A stretch of 64,000 nt of DNA from an uncultured Bacteroidales bacterium (GTDB lineage: Bacteria; Bacteroidota; Bacteroidia; Bacteroidales; Bacteroidaceae). The position numbers were made by a program, and so were the translations under genes. Below the pieces are notes generated by a model. That model was not told the DNA's origin, made no database searches, and saw nothing but the letters and a program-made list of their open reading frames with translations. Location of the stretch: positions 1 through 64,000 of the forward strand of contig CACZAN010000002.1 in NCBI GenBank assembly GCA_902779165.1. Reading direction: 5' to 3'. Shown piece by piece: positions 5,299-22,389 of this stretch (its first letter is position 1; each line of letters opens with the position of its first letter).

Positions 5299-6897
5299 TT
5301 ATAGGGTAACTCCAGTCTTGAAGATTGCGAACTCGGCATTGCCGTGCAGCTCTGCGGTGGTGCGGCTGCGGCCAGAGACCACATCGAGGACATACGAGGC
5401 GAATTGCTGGAGCAGTTTGTCCATCGTTACGTCGTCGAGCAACACGCCCGCATTGAAGTCTATCCACTGTGGCTTGCGGCACGCCAAATCGCTGTTCGTC
5501 GAGACCTTCAGCGTGGGAACGAAGGTGGAGAATGGGGTGCCGCGACCCGTGGTGAAGAGGACAAGTTGGCATCCGGCAGCAGCAAGGGCGGTAGAGGCTA
5601 CGAGGTCGTTGCCGGGGGCAGAGAGCAGGTGAAGTCCAGCCCTAGTGGGGCTAAGCCTTTCACCGTACTTCAGTACTCCAACGACGGGCGAGGTGCCGCT
5701 CTTCTGCGTGCAACCGAGGGCTTTCTCTTCGAGGGTCGAGATGCCGCCCGCCTTGTTGCCGGGCGATGGATTCTCGCCTACGGGTTGGCCGTGGCTGAGA
5801 TAGTACTCCTTGAAGTCGTTGATGAGGTGGATGGTGTCTTGCAGCACTTCGTCAGAGATGGCGCGACGCATCAGCAGATGTTCTGCGCCGAACATCTCAG
5901 GCACTTCTGTCAGAATGGTGGAGCCGCCCTGGGCGCAGAGCCAGTCGGAGAAGGCGCCGAGCAACGGATTAGCCGTGATGCCCGAGAAACCGTCGGAGCC
6001 GCCGCACTTCAGGCCCACTCGTAAATAAGACAGAGGTGTGGGCACACGTTCGTAGGTCAGTGCCTGCACATAGAGTTCCTTGACTATCTCGACGCCGGCT
6101 TCCACCTCGTCGCCCTCCACTTCTTGAGAGATAAGGAATCGGATGCGCTTGCGGTCGTAGTTGCCCAGCAGCTTCTCGAACTCGCGCGGTTGGTTGTTCT
6201 CGCAACCGAGGCCCACAACCAGCACGCCGCCTGCGTTGGGGTGCAACACCATGTCGCGCAGGATAAGTCGTGTGTTCTCGTGGTCGTCGCCGAGCTGTGA
6301 GCAGCCGTAATTGTGAGGGAAGTACAAAATGGTAGACTCTCCCCCCGCCCTCCCTTTCCGGGAGGGAGCAGAATGTATTTGACAGGCAGTAATCTCCTCA
6401 GAGTCATTGGTGACAGCTCCCTCCCGGAAAGGGAGGGCGGGGGGAGAGTCTCTTCTTGCCCTTTCTACAATCTGTCGGCAGATGCCATTGACACACCCTA
6501 CCGTCGGAATTACCCAGATATCATTGCGGATGCCTACCTGGCCGTCGGGGCGGGGGTAGCCGAGGAAGGAAAAAGACGCTTCAGACTCTCCCCCCGCCCT
6601 CCCTTTCCGGGAGGGAGCAGAATGTATTTGACAGGCGGGGGGAGAGTCTGTGGGGTCGGGGGAGAGTCCACTATAATCTATTGTGCCGCTGAGGTTCGTG
6701 GCGATATTATGGTGGTCCACGAGCTCTCCTTTTCGGATGTTGCGTGTGGCGTGGCCAATGGGGTTGCCGTACTTGATGATGTCCTCGCCCTCGGCGATAT
6801 CACGCAGGGCGAACTTATGGCCCGCCGGGATTCCGGGCAGGTCTTGCAGGGCTACGGCCACCGTATCCGCGGGATTTATCTGTAGGAACTCTTTCAA
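5299..6897 (-). CDS. uxaA: Altronate dehydratase family protein (UxaA-like) with two in-frame repeat insertions
   Basis: A 532-residue protein with the SAF-like N-terminal domain (IPAGHKFALRDI...GEDIIKYGNPIG) and the catalytic family segments GYPRPDGQVGIRNDIWVIP, HNYGCSQLGDD and LKCGGSDGFSGITANP. UxaA converts D-altronate to 2-keto-3-deoxy-gluconate; in Campylobacter a UxaA-like protein takes part in L-fucose breakdown, so L-fuconate is another possible substrate. The only reasonable start is TTG at 6897, because an in-frame TAA lies 15 bases upstream of it. Two GC-rich elements are translated within it: 39 residues at about 6335-6451, and a shorter one at about 6583-6668. Both give HSAPSRKGRAGGES-type peptides at surface-like junctions. 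Without them the length would be near the usual 470-500. Whether the enzyme still works is unknown. Confidence 0.9.
   Translation of the reverse strand: MKEFLQINPADTVAVALQDLPGIPAGHKFALRDIAEGEDIIKYGNPIGHATRNIRKGELVDHHNIATNLSGTIDYSGLSPDPTDSPPACQIHSAPSRKGRAGGESEASFSFLGYPRPDGQVGIRNDIWVIPTVGCVNGICRQIVERARRDSPPALPFREGAVTNDSEEITACQIHSAPSRKGRAGGESTILYFPHNYGCSQLGDDHENTRLILRDMVLHPNAGGVLVVGLGCENNQPREFEKLLGNYDRKRIRFLISQEVEGDEVEAGVEIVKELYVQALTYERVPTPLSYLRVGLKCGGSDGFSGITANPLLGAFSDWLCAQGGSTILTEVPEMFGAEHLLMRRAISDEVLQDTIHLINDFKEYYLSHGQPVGENPSPGNKAGGISTLEEKALGCTQKSGTSPVVGVLKYGERLSPTRAGLHLLSAPGNDLVASTALAAAGCQLVLFTTGRGTPFSTFVPTLKVSTNSDLACRKPQWIDFNAGVLLDDVTMDKLLQQFASYVLDVVSGRSRTTAELHGNAEFAIFKTGVTL
6335..6450 (-). 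mobile_element. GC-hairpin element, copy A (complete, 116 bp, in frame inside uxaA)
   Basis: Plus-strand ends are GACTCTCCCCCC... and ...GGGGGGAGAGTC, an inverted repeat. Each end also holds its own hairpin (GCCCTCCCtttccGGGAGGG and its partner). Next to the hairpins lie the two asymmetric family marks, AGAATGTATTTGACAGG on one side and GGTGACA on the other. It is read through in frame as 39 extra residues of UxaA (about DSPPALPFREGAV...GRAGGES). No target duplication is evident. Confidence 0.9.
6583..6668 (-). mobile_element. GC-hairpin element, copy B (truncated, in frame inside uxaA)
   Basis: The left arm GACTCTCCCCCCGCCCTCCC with its hairpin and the AGAATGTATTTGACAGG mark is intact. The right arm has lost its hairpin and remains only as CGGGGGGAGAGTC (ending about 6649), followed by a second vestige, GTCGGGGGAGAGTC (6655-6668). 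It is translated within UxaA between the N-terminal SAF-like domain and the catalytic domain (DSPPACQIHSAPSRKGRAGG). It lies about 130 bases from copy A in the same gene and orientation. Confidence 0.85.
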
Positions 6898-6980: not shown

Positions 6981-8512
6981 TCCACCGTCTCCATCATTCC
7001 ACGCTCAAGAATGCTCTCGATGCTCTGTGTGAGGAGGTCGGTGAGGCCGGGGATGGCGTTGAGGTCACCGTGCTCGTGCCAGATGAGGTCCTGTGCAGCG
7101 AGTACACCTTCAGCCACCTTTCGGCTTTCACCCGTTGCCCACAGGTCGGCCAGCAGCTGCATGATGCGCGGATCATCATTGGGCTGGATGGGGGTGCCGT
7201 CGGTGCGCTGACCACCTCGGTAGTAGACGCAGATGGCGGCGAGTCCGAGCACGATGCCTTTGGGAAGTGTGCCCTTGCGCTCGAGGTAGGTCTTCAGACC
7301 CGGCAGATCACGCGTCTGGAACTTGGGCAGGCTGTTGAGCATGATGCTTGTGAGCTGGTGGTCAACGAAGGGGTTGCAGAAGCGCTCCATCACATCGTCG
7401 GCGAAGCGGTGCAGCTCGTCCTCGGGCAGGTTCAGCGTTGGTAGCAGTTCCTCATACATCACGCGGCGGATGAACGGGCCGATGACTTCGTGCTGACAGG
7501 CATCGCGAACGATATTCAGTCCGGCAAGGAAAGCCACGGGTGAGAGCACGGTATGCGGGCCGTTGAGCAGCGTCACCTTGCGCTCGTGGTAAGGCGACTC
7601 GTCGTGAGTGAGCACCACATGCAGTCCAGCCTTGTCGGCAGGGAACTCGCGGGCCAGCTGCTCCAGCGACAGGTTCGGCGCCGTCTCGATGACCCAGAGG
7701 TGGAAGGCTTCGGCCTGAACCACCATTTGGTCGGCATAACCCACCTTCTGCTGGATAGCATCAATATCCTTGCGCGGGAAGCCTGGCACGATGCGGTCCA
7801 CGAGCGTGGCGCAGACGAAGCACGACTGCTCGAACCACGCGCGAAATGCCTCGAAGTCGGCACCCAGATCTTCTTTCCACAACTCAATGTATTTGCGGAT
7901 GCAGTCCGCGAGGTGGTGTCCGTTTTGGAAGATGAGTTCGCAGGGGAAGATGATGAGACCCTTGGCAGCGTCGCCGTCGAAAGCACGGAAACGATGGTAG
8001 AGCAACTGTGTCAGCTTGGCAGGGTAGGAGGAGGGCGGTGCGTCGTTCAGACGACATTCGGGGTCGAAGGCGATGCCAGCCTCCGTCGTGTTCGAGATGA
8101 CGAAACGGATATCTGGCTGCTCGGCCAGTGCCAGGAAAGCCGCATGGTCGGTATAGGGGTTCACGGTACGGCTGACGCTGTCGATGAGCTCGAGGGAGTT
8201 CACGGGCTGGCCGTCGATCAGGCCCTGCAGGTTGACGTGATAGAGGCAGTCCTGCGCCTGCAGGCGGTCCGCCATACCTTGTGCGATAGGTTGCACGATG
8301 ACGACTGAGGCATTGAAGTCAGTGCGCTGATCCATCTGCCACACGATCCAATCGATGAATGCGCGAAGGAAGTTGCCTTCGCCGAACTGTATGATGCGCT
8401 CTGGGCGCTGTGCCTTGGGAGCGGTTTTGCTATTGAGGGGGCTAATACCGGACTCTCCCCCCGCCCTCCCTGTTAGGGAGGGAGCAGAATGATTTTGAGT
8501 TGATGTATTCAT
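6965..8512 (-). CDS. uxaB: Tagaturonate reductase/altronate oxidoreductase (mannitol dehydrogenase family)
   Basis: A 515-residue protein. From about residue 38 it reads as UxaB: RPERIIQFGEGNFLRAFIDW (NAD-binding entrance), ISNTTEAGI, VDRIVPGFPR, then the C-terminal mannitol-dehydrogenase helical domain with VTLLNGPHTVLSP. UxaB interconverts D-tagaturonate and D-altronate with NADH, feeding UxaA. Its first 21 residues (MNTSTQNHSAPSLTGRAG...) are not part of the family: they are encoded by the end of GC-hairpin element copy C, which supplies the start codon. The same 21 residues begin FucP. The native start was probably near the GISPLNSK segment. uxaB lies between the zinc dehydrogenase and uxaA, all on one strand. 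Confidence 0.93.
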   Translation of the reverse strand: MNTSTQNHSAPSLTGRAGGESGISPLNSKTAPKAQRPERIIQFGEGNFLRAFIDWIVWQMDQRTDFNASVVIVQPIAQGMADRLQAQDCLYHVNLQGLIDGQPVNSLELIDSVSRTVNPYTDHAAFLALAEQPDIRFVISNTTEAGIAFDPECRLNDAPPSSYPAKLTQLLYHRFRAFDGDAAKGLIIFPCELIFQNGHHLADCIRKYIELWKEDLGADFEAFRAWFEQSCFVCATLVDRIVPGFPRKDIDAIQQKVGYADQMVVQAEAFHLWVIETAPNLSLEQLAREFPADKAGLHVVLTHDESPYHERKVTLLNGPHTVLSPVAFLAGLNIVRDACQHEVIGPFIRRVMYEELLPTLNLPEDELHRFADDVMERFCNPFVDHQLTSIMLNSLPKFQTRDLPGLKTYLERKGTLPKGIVLGLAAICVYYRGGQRTDGTPIQPNDDPRIMQLLADLWATGESRKVAEGVLAAQDLIWHEHGDLNAIPGLTDLLTQSIESILERGMMETVEKLKG

Positions 8513-8595
8513 ATTACTATAATAATATGGTTTATATTGTTTCTATTTACAAGTGTGAACGCTCCCTCCAGGAAAGGGAGGGCGGGGGGAGAGTC
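8451..8595 (-). mobile_element. GC-hairpin element, copy C (non-autonomous; fills the dehydrogenase-uxaB junction)
   Basis: 145 bp with inverted ends GACTCTCCCCCC.../...GGGGGGAGAGTC. The left 62 bases (8451-8512), including an ATG on the minus strand, are identical to the left 62 bases of the nuclease-bearing copy D at 19036-19097. The middle has only about 35 AT-rich bases in place of the nuclease gene. On the minus strand its first bases overlap the TAG stop of the zinc dehydrogenase (TTT TAG ACTCTCC), and its last bases are codons 1-21 of uxaB. Confidence 0.9.
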
Positions 8596-17741: not shown

Positions 17742-19097
17742 CTATGCTATTCCTGTCTTCACCTGCCGGAAGGTGCGGTAGCCGTAGATGGTGATGAAGA
17801 TGAAGCAGATGAAGGGGAGAACGAAGGAGACGTTGACGGCGGGCCAGCCGAAGATGACCTGCTGATCGATGAGGTGACCCTGCAAGGGGGGCATCAGGGC
17901 TCCGCCGACAATGGCCATGACGAGGAAGGCGGCACCGAGGGAGGTGTCCTCCGTGCGTACGTTCTCGAGGGCAATGCCGTAGATGCTGGGGAACATGATG
18001 GACATGAAGAGGCTGATGCAGACGAGGCTGTAGAGGCCCATCATGCCTTCGATGCAGATGGCGCCGAGGGTGCAGATCGACGCCCCGATGCCGAAAAGCA
18101 TGAGCAGACGACGCTGGTTGACCCACTTCATGATGTAGGTGCCCACGAAGCGGCCGGTCAACGACAGCGACATGGCCAGGATGTTCCAGCGCTGGGCGGT
18201 AGCCTTGTCGATGCCGAGGTGGTCGGCATACTGGATGATGAAGGTCCACACCATGATTTGGGCGGCGACATAGAGCACCTGAGCCAGCACGCCATTGCGG
18301 TAAGTGCCGTTGTGCCAGAGGCGGGAGAGGGTAGTGCGGGCGGTGGTCTGTGCGTCGTTCTCGCCCTTCAGGGAGGGCATCTTGGTGAGGGCGATGATGA
18401 TGAACATCACGAGGACAACGAGTCCGATGGCGACATACGGGTCGCGGATGACGGCGAGGTCGTGCAGGCGGATGTCGGCCTTCTCGGCCTCGGAGAGGGT
18501 GCCGAAGATGATCTGTCCGGCGGCGTCGCGCTTGTCGGAAAGGAGGTTCGGCAGCACGATGAACGAGGCAACGGCCATGCCGCTGAGCGAGCCCACGGGG
18601 TTGAAGGCCTGTGCCAGGTTCAGGCGGCGTGTGGAGTTGGACTTGTCGCCTAACGAGAGAATGAACGGGTTGGCGCTGGTCTCGAGAAAGGCGAGGCCGA
18701 AGGTGAGGATGTAGAGCGACACGCAGAAGAAGGTGAACTCCTGGAGCTGTGCGGCGGGGATGAACAAGAAGGCTCCTACGGCGTAAAGTCCGAGGCCGAT
18801 GAGCACGCCGACCTTGTAGGAGTATTTGCGGATGAACAGGGCGGCGGGAATGGCCATCGTTGCATAGCCGCCGTAGAAGGCGAACTGCACCATCGAGGCC
18901 TTGGCGGCTGAGATCTCCATCAGCGTCTGGAACGCTGCCACCATGGGGTTGGTGATGTCGTTGGCGAATCCCCAGAGGGCGAACAACGAGGTGATGAGGA
19001 TGAAGGTGAAGAGGTACTTGCGGGGCACAAGAACGGACTCTCCCCCCGCCCTCCCTGTTAGGGAGGGAGCAGAATGATTTTGAGTTGATGTATTCAT
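17742..19097 (-). CDS. fucP: L-fucose:H+ symporter-type MFS permease (FucP)
   Basis: A 451-residue protein with twelve membrane segments. From about residue 25, KYLFTFILITSLFALWGFANDITNPMVAAFQ is the characteristic first helix of FucP-family sugar/proton symporters, and FLETSANPFILSLG lies in the middle. It imports L-fucose or a related sugar across the inner membrane. The first 21 residues (MNTSTQNHSAPSLTGRAG...) come from GC-hairpin element copy D, which supplies the start codon and is identical to the start of UxaB. The ATG overlaps the stop of the DUF559 gene (ATGA), so translation is probably coupled. Last gene of the fucose operon. Confidence 0.93.
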   Translation of the reverse strand: MNTSTQNHSAPSLTGRAGGESVLVPRKYLFTFILITSLFALWGFANDITNPMVAAFQTLMEISAAKASMVQFAFYGGYATMAIPAALFIRKYSYKVGVLIGLGLYAVGAFLFIPAAQLQEFTFFCVSLYILTFGLAFLETSANPFILSLGDKSNSTRRLNLAQAFNPVGSLSGMAVASFIVLPNLLSDKRDAAGQIIFGTLSEAEKADIRLHDLAVIRDPYVAIGLVVLVMFIIIALTKMPSLKGENDAQTTARTTLSRLWHNGTYRNGVLAQVLYVAAQIMVWTFIIQYADHLGIDKATAQRWNILAMSLSLTGRFVGTYIMKWVNQRRLLMLFGIGASICTLGAICIEGMMGLYSLVCISLFMSIMFPSIYGIALENVRTEDTSLGAAFLVMAIVGGALMPPLQGHLIDQQVIFGWPAVNVSFVLPFICFIFITIYGYRTFRQVKTGIA

Positions 19098-19518
19098 TTA
19101 AAGTATGATTCTATTTGAGATAAGACGTTTTGGGTGTCGTAAAGGACTTCTTCATTAGAGAAACGCATGATGTGAAAGCCCATCCGTTCTAAAGCTTGTT
19201 CTCGAACAGCGTCATCTTCTTGTTGTTGACGCTCTGCATGATAACCTCCATCCACTTCGATGACAAGGCCTTCACGCTGTGAGACGAAATCGACGATGTA
19301 ATCACCAATAATATATTGCCTGTTGAATCGGGTTCCAACGTCCAAGGTGCGCAGTTCTTCCCATAGAACGGATTCTGCAAGTGTCATATTACGGCGATTC
19401 TCTCTTGCAAAGTCTTTCAAGAGCGCATATCTGTCAGGTGAAGCTGATCGATAATCCATTATTCTCTATTTAAGAAGGTGACCGCTCCCTCCCTAACAGG
19501 GAGGGCGGGGGGAGAGTC
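19036..19518 (-). mobile_element. GC-hairpin element, copy D: nuclease-bearing (putative autonomous) form
   Basis: 483 bp between inverted hairpin ends (GACTCTCCCCCCGCCCTCCC at 19036 and its complement ending at 19518). On the minus strand the order is hairpin, GGTCACC mark, DUF559 gene (19459 to 19094), an ATG overlapping the DUF559 stop, 20 further codons, hairpin. The upstream end lies 1 base after the fucI stop codon; the downstream end runs directly into the FucP reading frame. No target duplication is visible (flanks GAACG and GTCAA). It is 62-base identical with copy C at its downstream end. Confidence 0.9.
19094..19459 (-). CDS. DUF559 (Vsr-like, PD-(D/E)XK) nuclease domain protein inside GC-hairpin element
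   Basis: A 121-residue single-domain protein starting MDYRSASPDRYALLKDFARE. Family features: RRNMTLAESVLWEELR near residue 20, then the core RQYIIGDYIVDFVSQREGLVIEVDGGYH with the Asp of YIVDF and the E-x-D of VIEVDG as probable metal ligands, and the MGFHIMRFSNEEVL strand-helix. DUF559 is related to the very-short-patch-repair endonuclease fold; no substrate is established for the family. Here the gene is flanked exactly by the element's hairpin ends, and its TGA stop overlaps the fucP ATG by four bases. The simplest reading is that it is the mobility protein of the element rather than part of fucose metabolism. Confidence 0.9.
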   Translation of the reverse strand: MDYRSASPDRYALLKDFARENRRNMTLAESVLWEELRTLDVGTRFNRQYIIGDYIVDFVSQREGLVIEVDGGYHAERQQQEDDAVREQALERMGFHIMRFSNEEVLYDTQNVLSQIESYFK

Positions 19519-19519
19519 G

Positions 19520-21337
19520 TCAATACAATGGCCCGAAGTTTTGGCAGGCACGGTAGTCGGCACCCTCTTTGTCCATTCCGAAGGCATTCCATGCGGCGGG
19601 ACGGAAGATGTCGGCATCGGCGACGTTGTGCATGCATACGGGAATGCGGAGGATGCTGCAGAGGGTGATGACGTCGGCACCAATATGGCCGTAGGCGATG
19701 GCACCGTGGTTAGCACCCCAGCAGTTCATGACTGAATATACATCCTTGAAGCAGTCCTTCGACGGGTCGAGGCGCGGCACGAACCAAGTTGTGGGCCAGG
19801 TGGGGTCGGTGCGGCGGTCGAGGATGTCGTGGGTCTTCGGGTCGAGTTCCACGGTCCAGCCTTCGGCGAGCTGCAGCACGGGGCCAAGGCCTTGCACCAT
19901 GTTCAGGCGCATCATGGTCATGGGCATGCCTCCCTTGGTGACGAAGTGTGAACTGTAGCCGCCGCCACGGAAGTAATCGCGGTCGGCAGGCATCCAGTTG
20001 GTAGCCTTGAGGCAGGCCTCGACGTCGGCGTCGGTCAGTTCCCAGTGGGGCTTCATGGTCGGCTTGCCATCGGCATCTGTGGCGGCGCCGGTGGCATCGA
20101 GGGTGGTGGCACCGCTGTTGATGAGGTGGATGAAGCCCTGAGCGGCCAGACCGCTCAGCACGGTGCCTGTGACGCGCTTGACGGCCTCTGGGCTCCAGTA
20201 GGTGCGGATGTCGGAGAACATCACGCCGCGGTTTGTCAGCAGGTGACCGAAGAGCATGGTCATCCCGTTGAGGAAGTCGTTTTCGGTGGCGAGGATCTTT
20301 GCCTCGCGCTTGCCGTTCCAGTCGAACGACGTGCACATCAGCGACTCGGGGAAGTCGAAGTTCGGCTTGTAGTCGGTCCACTGGCGCTGGCCTTGCACTC
20401 CGCCGGCGATGGCATTATGTCCTAATGCTTCTTCCTTGTAGCCCATTTCGAGCAGACGCGGGTTGCCCTCCATGAGGTCGCGGATGATCATCATGGTCTT
20501 TACGGTGAACTCCCAGTCGGCATCCTTCTCGGCGCGGTTCTTGCCCTTGCCCTTGCCGTTGAAAGTGGTCATGGGCGTGCCGGGGAAGAGCGGACGGTCC
20601 TCGTTGTAGTCGTGGCCTTCCTGCGGCTTGCAGTATTTCTCTACCCACGCCATCGCTCTCTGGAACTCTTCGGGGTCAAAGATGTTGAAATCGACGCGGC
20701 GAAGGATTTCGACGAGCGAGACGTACTCCGTGCGCATACCTAAGTAGTTCTGCAGGAAGTCGGCATTGACGATGGAGCCGGCGATGCCCATGCAGGTGTT
20801 GCCTAAGGAGAGGTAGCTCTTGCCTCTCATCGTGGCTACTGCCTGTGCGGCCCGGGCGAAGCGCAGAATCTTCTCGGCTACATCGGCGGGGATAGAGTTG
20901 TCGGCAATATCCTGAACGTCATGGCCGTAGATGCCAAAAGCGGGCAGGCCCTTTTGGGCGTGAGCGGCCAAGACGGCAGCCAGATAGACGGCACCTGGGC
21001 GCTCTGTACCATTGAAGCCCCACACGGCTTTCGGGTAGTGCGGGTTCATGTCCATGGTCTCAGAACCATAGCACCAGCAAGAGGTGACGGTGATGGTGGA
21101 GCCTACGCCCTCGCGCTCGAACTTCTCGGCGCAAGCGGCGCTCTCGGCCACACGGCCTATGGTGCCGTCGGCAATGACGCACTCCACAGGTGAACCGTCG
21201 CCATTGCGGAGGTTGGTGGTTATCAACTCGGCAACGGCCTTGGCCAGTGCCATCGTTTTCTCTTCAAGGCTTTCGCGGACACCGCCCTGGCGACCGTCGA
21301 TGGTGGGACGAATCCCGATTTTGGGGTAAGTATTCAT
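19520..21337 (-). CDS. fucI: L-fucose isomerase
   Basis: A 605-residue protein, normal FucI length. Family segments: [20 protein letters not shown] at the N-terminus, [31 protein letters not shown], and the active-site region ATENDFLNG (Mn-binding Glu/Asp region) with FSDIRTYW. It interconverts L-fucose and L-fuculose; FucI also handles D-arabinose. Its ATG overlaps the stop of the amidohydrolase gene by four bases. No fuculokinase or fuculose-phosphate aldolase gene is in the window. The stop TGA is one base from the end of the nuclease-bearing element. Confidence 0.97.
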
Positions 21338-22314: not shown

Positions 22315-22389
22315 ATTGTATCAAGGTGTAATGCTTTCTATTCCTAAAGGTAACCGCTCCCTCCCTCACAGGGAGGGCGGGGGTGGGTC
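22241..22389 (-). mobile_element. GC-hairpin element, copy E (variant ends, fills the AKR-amidohydrolase junction)
   Basis: 149 bp with diverged ends GACCCACCCCCCAGCCCCTCCC and ...GGGCGGGGGTGGGTC. The left mark AGAATGTATTTGACTGG and right mark GGTAACCGCTCCCTCCC are kept. On the minus strand it begins two bases after the AKR TAA stop and ends inside codon 25 of the amidohydrolase gene, to which it supplies the ATG (22314). There is no nuclease gene inside. Confidence 0.88.

Follow-up and report, generated by a model that had tools for sequence, protein, structure and literature searches.

Among described bacterial systems, the closest to the element reported here are the REP sequences and REPINs with their RAYT (TnpA-REP) enzymes, also termed 'REPtrons' (PMC3733652, PMC3116915, PMC8266576), which are marked by short, outer-tailed hairpin ends, by inverted doublets scattered in many copies over one genome, by a single enzyme gene enclosed between the ends and by no visible target duplication. 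These features recur in a 483-bp unit, a single DUF559 gene between two inverted hairpin ends, that lies in the 64,000 nucleotides of DNA analysed here (hereafter the window: positions 1 to 64,000 of contig CACZAN010000002.1, assembly GCA_902779165.1, from an uncultured Bacteroidales bacterium). The enzyme, however, is a PD-(D/E)XK nuclease rather than an HUH-Y1 transposase, the tail resembles G(A/C)C(T/C)CNCCCC rather than carrying a GTAG tag, and the element shows recurrent sites, clades that follow those sites and a downstream end that supplies the N-termini of host genes. By analogy, it appears to work like a REPIN together with its enzyme, but the two marks of RAYT systems, the HUH-Y1 enzyme and the GTAG tag, are absent.

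The EDxHD homing endonuclease I-Bth0305I (PDB code 3r3p) is related to the DUF559 protein in sequence and fold, and its type shares with the present element the occurrence of a given site with or without the insertion among relatives (here at fucP, fmt, gmk and korB) and horizontal spread limited to the element, in two clear cases. It differs in that it is described as phage-derived and as possessing additional regions for DNA binding, and the accessible part of its description (PMC3943268) mentions neither inverted hairpin ends nor gene-less copies dispersed in the genome. Placing a DUF559 gene in the EDxHD homing family has a precedent in cyanobacteria (PMC9403480, as far as its accessible text goes). 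The Vsr mismatch nuclease and Caulobacter VsrA have the fold (1vsr, rank 11) and the DUF559 domain in common with our protein, but no hairpin-ended unit is described in the accessible text on VsrA (PMC12907096). Finally, Rickettsia palindromic elements and CGTC REPs are likewise palindromic repeats that apparently lack a dedicated transposase, and the mobilizer of CGTC REPs is stated to be an open question in the part of PMC3733652 that treats them; they carry a CGTC tag, whereas the tails found here are different.

We propose that the DUF559 gene, together with the pair of inverted hairpin ends, makes up a single minimal mobile element, homing-like in behaviour and accompanied by non-autonomous, gene-less derivatives, a reading to which we assign a probability of roughly 0.6. 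From the comparisons below, the unit is almost certainly real and very likely mobile; the nuclease is probably the enzyme of mobility, and we hold it an even chance that movement is of the homing type rather than by single-strand insertion. The comparisons also show that the unit exists across phyla, and that the same site may be empty, full or furnished with a gene-less end pair. Full-text literature searches, which covered few subscription papers, found no description of a DUF559 hairpin element, although an earlier one is possible.

Organization of the element between fucI and fucP

The unit occupies positions 19036–19518, and its gene and both neighbouring genes lie on the reverse strand. 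Its ends form a perfect inverted repeat of 35 nt (19036–19070 and 19484–19518; arms 100% complementary, with 413 nt between them), each arm containing the stem CCCTCCC-TGTTA-GGGAGGG, and they enclose a single open reading frame (ORF) encoding a DUF559 protein of 121 amino acids (19094–19459; PF04480, E = 4e-33), a Vsr/EDxHD-like PD-(D/E)XK nuclease. The upstream end, 5' on the gene strand (19484–19518), consists of the outer tail GACTCTCCCCCC and the stem-loop, and just inside it stands the motif GGTCACC (19477–19483; GGTGACC on the forward strand). Ends of this upstream type recur at other sites in other species and, by eye, GGTTACC- or GATAC-like motifs follow the hairpin in many relatives. 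The downstream end (19036–19070) is translated within the leader of FucP (APSLTGRAGGES): the DUF559 stop codon overlaps an ATG (ATGA), the frame from this ATG crosses the downstream arm into fucP (17742–19097; MFS_1 match), and the leader so read, MNTSTQNHSAPSLTGRAGGES, precedes the conserved FucP sequence. On the other side, the ORF of fucI (19520–21337) ends at 19520, one base from the upstream arm. A reading of the window from its letters alone (the sequence-only reading) had proposed this hairpin-enclosed unit with its GGTCACC mark, its place between fucI and fucP and its overlapping ATG, and in all these respects it holds.

Compared with empty sites in relatives, FucI lacks its last codon (K), and the element stands in for that codon and for the first codons of FucP, of which it supplies about 21. 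This suggests that a small stretch of the target was replaced, leaving FucI without its last codon and FucP without its usual first ones. Inspection of the sequence and its ORFs found no transposase within the 483-bp unit, and no target duplication was seen at it, as the sequence-only reading had also noted, or by eye at seven gene-less doublets of the same genome; a DDE insertion sequence or miniature inverted-repeat transposable element would be expected to have both.

Inverted repeats enclose DUF559 genes in many bacteria

Enclosure was scored as the best inverted repeat between the 250-bp flanks of a full-length DUF559 gene. The relatives, from the same genus and order, comprised 30 loci, three loci of the window's own genome and 60 regions that cover 62 of the 65 next-listed places (three at contig edges were skipped, and about 50 lower-scoring listed places, with any beyond the end of the list, were excluded). 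They held 94 full-length matches (none in L003, L061, L063 or L114; L and G numbers are our handles for loci and genomes), of which 93 had enough flank and 89 were left after removal of four duplicates. The score reached at least 12 in 81 of these 89 loci, at least 15 in 66 and at least 20 in 47, whereas among 1554 shifted, overlapping control intervals of the same loci (93 loci, duplicates included) only 15 reached 12 and four reached 15. Flanks paired across different loci reached 15 in 4.9% of 2996 pairs, and ORFs of 90–200 codons in the same loci in none of 36 (larger ORFs, two of 31). On these controls and those of the two wider samples below we judge enclosure by chance to be unlikely; the expectation of the sequence-only reading, that DUF559 genes of relatives are flanked by hairpin repeats more often than chance, was borne out.

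Similar results were obtained farther afield. A Sphingomonas DUF559 protein had 380 relatives, of which the best 80 were kept; 79 of their loci had enough flank and 66 of these scored at least 15, compared with three of 1083 controls; they are mostly from Sphingomonadales and other Proteobacteria, with some from Chloroflexota and candidate WOR-3, and the first ten, all Sphingomonas, possibly represent one site and hence are not independent. A further sample, mostly from the class of an alphaproteobacterium, gave 21 of 39 loci against none of 312 controls (39 of 44 loci were usable, L268, L270, L271, L273 and L277 being already among the previous set). From 45 matches, 12 plasmid loci and one phage locus were chosen; seven of the plasmid loci reached 15 (Pseudanabaena, Picosynechococcus, two Deinococcus, two Sphingomonas and one Sphingobium), and the phage locus fell below; one of the plasmid loci, L176, scores 20, but one of its control intervals reaches 17. 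In two Deinococcus plasmids the DUF559 gene adjoins the same hpa gene cluster but at different borders, and in a Sphingomonas plasmid it lies between sufB and sufC. Three alphaproteobacterial loci (L295, L296 and L299) are apparently at the start of carB, judged from their flanks by eye, a site that thus recurs across genomes, and one genome of about 3.4 Mb (G167, of the class of G155) has ten DUF559 matches on its contig C1, two of them weak.

End sequences vary greatly between loci, where many types occur, and match within a locus. In the window's relatives (60 of 94 matches inspected) the ends read, from the outside inwards, as a pyrimidine tail G(A/C)C(T/C)CNCCCC followed by a C-rich/G-rich stem; the tails are GACTCTCCCC, GCCTCACCCC and similar, not GTAG, and a strict 17-base tail pattern is found within 600 bp of only 32 of the 89 DUF559 loci. 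By eye, a complete doublet makes up each of the two sides in some loci of Sphingomonas and of cyanobacteria. Protein and end similarity are correlated across different sites and genomes (Spearman 0.23; 66 loci, 2053 pairs; one of 2000 permutations as high), and the nearest relatives of the window's DUF559 protein, encoded upstream of fmt (formyltransferase), ribF (riboflavin kinase/FAD synthetase) and an acyl-ACP thioesterase gene, families checked by Pfam, have similar or identical arms. CGTC REPs were considered as partners of DUF559 and set aside: a text scan with three motifs over the collected loci except L001–L033 and L124–L173 found 13 matches, all scattered, and nowhere a pair of repeats enclosing a DUF559 gene; at L248 and L263 (the same as L271) matches lie within about 150 bp of the gene, on one side only.

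Occupied, empty and gene-less sites

Four sites (fucP, fmt, gmk and korB) were compared in 30 loci each. A match to fucP was found in 45 of 91 genomes, and among the loci examined DUF559 is present at this site in the window's genome alone. A FucP leader clearly derived from the hairpin is present in seven loci, including the window, and likely in one more; gene-less end pairs, some of them degraded, occur in G016, G077, G026 and G046, a lone downstream end in G029, and at least eight loci have a plain junction in which the FucI stop is followed by the FucP ATG. The comparison of fucI–fucP junctions for which the sequence-only reading had called yielded junctions with and without the element and, in addition, the gene-less pairs.

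At gmk, the hairpin joins a DUF559 gene in frame to gmk in six loci (the gene being partial in one), one further locus keeps an apparent fused C-terminus, 20 show a plain border between gmk and what we take to be yicC, and three are ambiguous. Fusions of DUF559 to guanylate kinase through a translated hairpin were seen at L098, L079, L054, L051, L111, L109, L353 and L355, with only an apparent DUF559 C-terminus in L355. At fmt, DUF559 is present in six loci and plain starts also occur, as in the window's own genome. At korB (KorA and KorB likewise being our own recognition), a DUF559 gene lies upstream in five loci, one of them partial, G019 is ambiguous and the remainder have starts that we read as native. 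In G060 (L406), korB is preceded by a broken DUF559 remnant in two pieces, with a leader nearly as in the intact elements of G002 and G043, which looks to be a stage of decay. Taken together, the full, gene-less or broken, and empty forms at fucP, gmk and korB fit the autonomous nuclease-bearing unit with deletion derivatives that the sequence-only reading had put forward.

The korB elements of G002 and G043 (L044 and L065) are identical over 516 bp, from 92 bp before to 79 bp after the domain. The identical block ends about 21 and 5 bp beyond the ends of the element, and the flanks are 82–86% identical. At korB, G002 is more similar to five genomes with a native-type start (G000, G018, G041, G067 and G088) than to G043. 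A unit identical in two species with flanks so diverged must therefore move; contamination is an unlikely cause, because both flanks have diverged on each contig. The pair L068/L071 at the threonine synthase gene is similar, with a core 99.4% identical and flanks at about 85%. Among 76 same-site pairs, the core exceeds the flanks by at least 8 points in five, clearly in these two and moderately in three. The threonine synthase ORF of L068, downstream of the DUF559 element, also contains a hairpin-like peptide, SLPSLTGGAGGGSS, in frame in its interior.

Insertion at gene borders and site-specific clades

Common genes on both sides place 61 of the 89 loci in 21 groups, one of which consists of two nearby copies in one genome. 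When site labels were mapped onto a maximum-likelihood tree of DUF559 (115 columns, many forks weak), 21 changes were required, against a minimum of 20 and a mean of 49.9 for shuffled labels (none of 200 as low), and two of 15 listed site groups were split. Hosts are mixed on this tree, and several genomes hold genes of several clades; the window's own clade is found at four sites in different species with similar ends. So far as the tree resolves them, these results show that DUF559 clades follow the insertion site and not the host, a pattern expected either from homing to specific sites or from old insertions that were inherited and later lost. The korB case of G002 and G043 shows part of the spread, at least, to be horizontal.

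The flanks further show where the element typically lies: between tandem genes, close behind the stop codon of the first and at the 5' end of the second. In 47 of the 66 loci scoring at least 15, a long upstream ORF ends within −60 to +40 nt of the left arm, with a median of 5 nt outside it. Beyond the right arm (81 loci scoring at least 12), a co-directional ORF of at least 80 codons is found in 70 loci and is open through the whole arm in 69; among these 69, an ATG lies within the element in 54, and 11 are fusions with DUF559 itself. In loci with enough flank the outward frame is open in 68 of 78 right arms versus 30 of 78 left arms, and 71 of 78 have a co-directional ORF as the longest one downstream. 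Examples of proteins with a leader from the element are FucP, Fmt, RibF, KorB, CysS and Gmk, with Pfam support (KorB only as a thiamine-pyrophosphate enzyme). The comparisons thus show a downstream end that is usually open in the frame of the next gene and that often supplies its start codon, an arrangement that would make insertion tolerable. That the start of the next gene normally comes from this end, and that the ends are of many sequence types, goes beyond the sequence-only reading. A resemblance of the gmk target to the element tail (GGGGAGGCT) fits gmk by eye but not fucP or fmt, and we make no claim for it.

Gene-less ends and hairpin load

Six gene-less copies had been counted in the window by the sequence-only reading; these proved to be six ends, arranged as two doublets (6335–6450 and 8451–8595) and two singles (6584 and about 22360), and the identity over 62 bases that it had reported stands. 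The doublet at 8451–8595 shares these 62 nt with the downstream end of the DUF559 unit and gives an ORF of the mannitol dehydrogenase family (uxaB-like) the same leader as FucP. The other doublet, of 116 bp, and the single end at 6584–6618 lie in frame in one altronate dehydratase (uxaA) ORF (5299–6897, reverse strand), which has two hairpin-derived insertions (peptides ACQIHSAPSRKGRAGGES) and in which the enzyme domains are still matched. The single end at 22356–22389 lies upstream of an amidohydrolase gene, the product of which has an N-terminus (...GGGS) resembling the FucP leader.

The hairpin pattern is matched 16 times in the window against 0.22 expected (both strands, palindromes being counted about twice), and 145 times in the 3.59-Mb genome, compared with one match to the reversed pattern. 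Thirty hairpin loci of this genome include seven gene-less doublets of 113–120 bp with ends of the same kind, and four of the seven tested are open in frame through an ORF (L004, which is the uxaA doublet of the window, L014, L018 and L026); insertion in frame within coding genes is also a trait of Rickettsia palindromic elements. The second DUF559 gene of the genome (contig C30) is enclosed as well, by different hairpins forming a perfect 33-nt repeat. A third, weak DUF559-like match (L003; G000, contig C36) lies in a frame of 1305 codons without enclosing hairpins.

Across 91 genomes of the genus, the median number of tail copies is 43 in the 57 genomes with a DUF559 match at E < 1e-15 and five in the 34 without (Mann–Whitney p = 2.5e-7; Spearman 0.58, with no correction for kinship). 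A weak correlation with DUF559 is seen for the reversed control pattern too (0.37).

The DUF559 enzyme

Residues invariant over 29 relatives of the DUF559 protein include Asp57, Glu68, Asp70, His74, Arg99 and Asn102. A profile search of solved structures at E < 0.001 returned two only, 3hrl, a DUF559-like protein of Neisseria (E = 1e-30), and 3r3p, the homing endonuclease I-Bth0305I (E = 1.1e-6). The AlphaFold2 model (mean pLDDT, the predicted local distance difference test score, 89.7) has the same two structures as its best fold matches (3r3p by Foldseek, E = 5e-5), with Vsr eleventh. Among characterized proteins in the PDB, I-Bth0305I is the nearest relative. Links of DUF559 to phages or defence appeared only as weak library matches. 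A Caulobacter DUF559 protein is reported, in the accessible part of PMC12907096, to provoke a DNA-damage response in cells without a methyltransferase; members of the family can therefore be active in vivo.

Mechanism and alternative explanations

In the mechanism that we favour, the nuclease would cut an unoccupied target, or a gene-less doublet already present, and repair or short-homology recombination would then copy the element in; the hairpins would be recognized or processed as ends and so define the unit, and gene-less doublets would have arisen from it by deletion and be mobilized in trans. Since a needed gene has its start replaced by the element, loss of the element could hurt the host, which would favour its persistence.

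Several observations weigh against this homing-like reading. The blocks that resemble conversion tracts extend no more than tens of bases beyond the element, and homing tracts are expected to be longer than this. In the other 71 of the 76 same-site pairs the core is not favoured, most cores being equally or less similar than their flanks, and the clades by site could partly reflect vertical descent with loss. Different DUF559 types lie a few codons apart at korB, and the target is therefore not one exact bond. No inverted pair scoring at least 15 was found in 23 of the 89 loci, in five of the 12 plasmid loci or in 18 of the 39 loci of the further sample. Seven of the 34 genomes without a clear DUF559 gene have at least 20 tails (G018 has 120), and seven of the 57 with one have fewer than five. 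Movement of the unit, moreover, is shown by comparison of sequences rather than by direct observation, and cleavage is inferred.

With transferred blocks so tightly delimited, a REPIN-like single-strand mechanism that uses a different enzyme is also conceivable. The DUF559 protein, as an analogue of RAYT, would nick hairpins extruded on the lagging strand and insert the excised strand without target duplication, as the hairpin ends, the outer tail on both of them, the doublets of 113–120 bp and the lack of a visible duplication would allow, together with the occurrence of the window's clade, with similar ends, at four sites in different species. We consider this unlikely, although it is the strongest of the alternatives: the repeated use of the same sites and the site-wise clades fit homing better, and PD-(D/E)XK nucleases hydrolyse DNA with no covalent intermediate.

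The hairpins might instead be REP sequences of the usual kind that depend on a transposase, RAYT or other, for their movement, with DUF559 a passenger caught between two copies. They far outnumber DUF559 genes, some hairpin-rich genomes have no DUF559 gene, and Y1 transposases are present in the genus. However, a full-length Y1_Tnp gene (14 of the 91 genomes) shows no relation to tail load (p = 0.44), and 39 of 48 hairpin-rich genomes are without one. No DUF559-type tail lies within 600 bp of any of the 14 best Y1_Tnp loci of the genus, versus 32 of the 89 DUF559 loci with the same strict pattern; a linked transposase or RAYT, which the sequence-only reading had named as evidence that would tell against it, did not come to light at these loci. 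These Y1 loci (L154–L167, L155 among them) carry different inverted hairpins of their own, with TAGCC in eight of the 14, and the RAYT-like system of the genus is separate from the DUF559 hairpins. A passenger would hardly be expected to recur in so many phyla, and the ORFs of 90–200 codons among the neighbouring genes are not enclosed. A RAYT as the mover, and with it a passenger role for DUF559, is therefore improbable.

Least probable is that DUF559 is a host repair (Vsr-like) or defence gene and the hairpins are terminators around recently acquired small intergenic genes, for, although a role in mismatch repair is proposed for the DUF559 protein VsrA of Caulobacter (PMC12907096, accessible part) and hairpins could end transcription, the arms match each other specifically, transfer is limited to the element, the downstream end is read through as coding and gene-less pairs lie inside ORFs.

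Returning to the homing-like element, we lean towards a wider claim, with somewhat less assurance than towards the nuclease as the mobility enzyme: DUF559 proteins across bacteria may be dedicated mobility nucleases of phylum-spanning, CCCTC-type hairpin elements, a transposase-free counterpart of RAYT and REPIN, and these elements may home to the 5' ends of conserved genes, take over their start codons and seed gene-less repeats.

Many bacterial palindromic repeats are without a known mobilizer, and we do not claim that the DUF559 element solves the CGTC class. A small, common family labelled only as DUF559 nevertheless gains a concrete and testable role. The element would be one that lives by cutting and repair with a single gene of about 120 codons, and it would write itself into the proteins of its hosts, through start codons and through fusions such as that of DUF559 with guanylate kinase, so that the annotated N-termini of some conserved genes may be derived from it.

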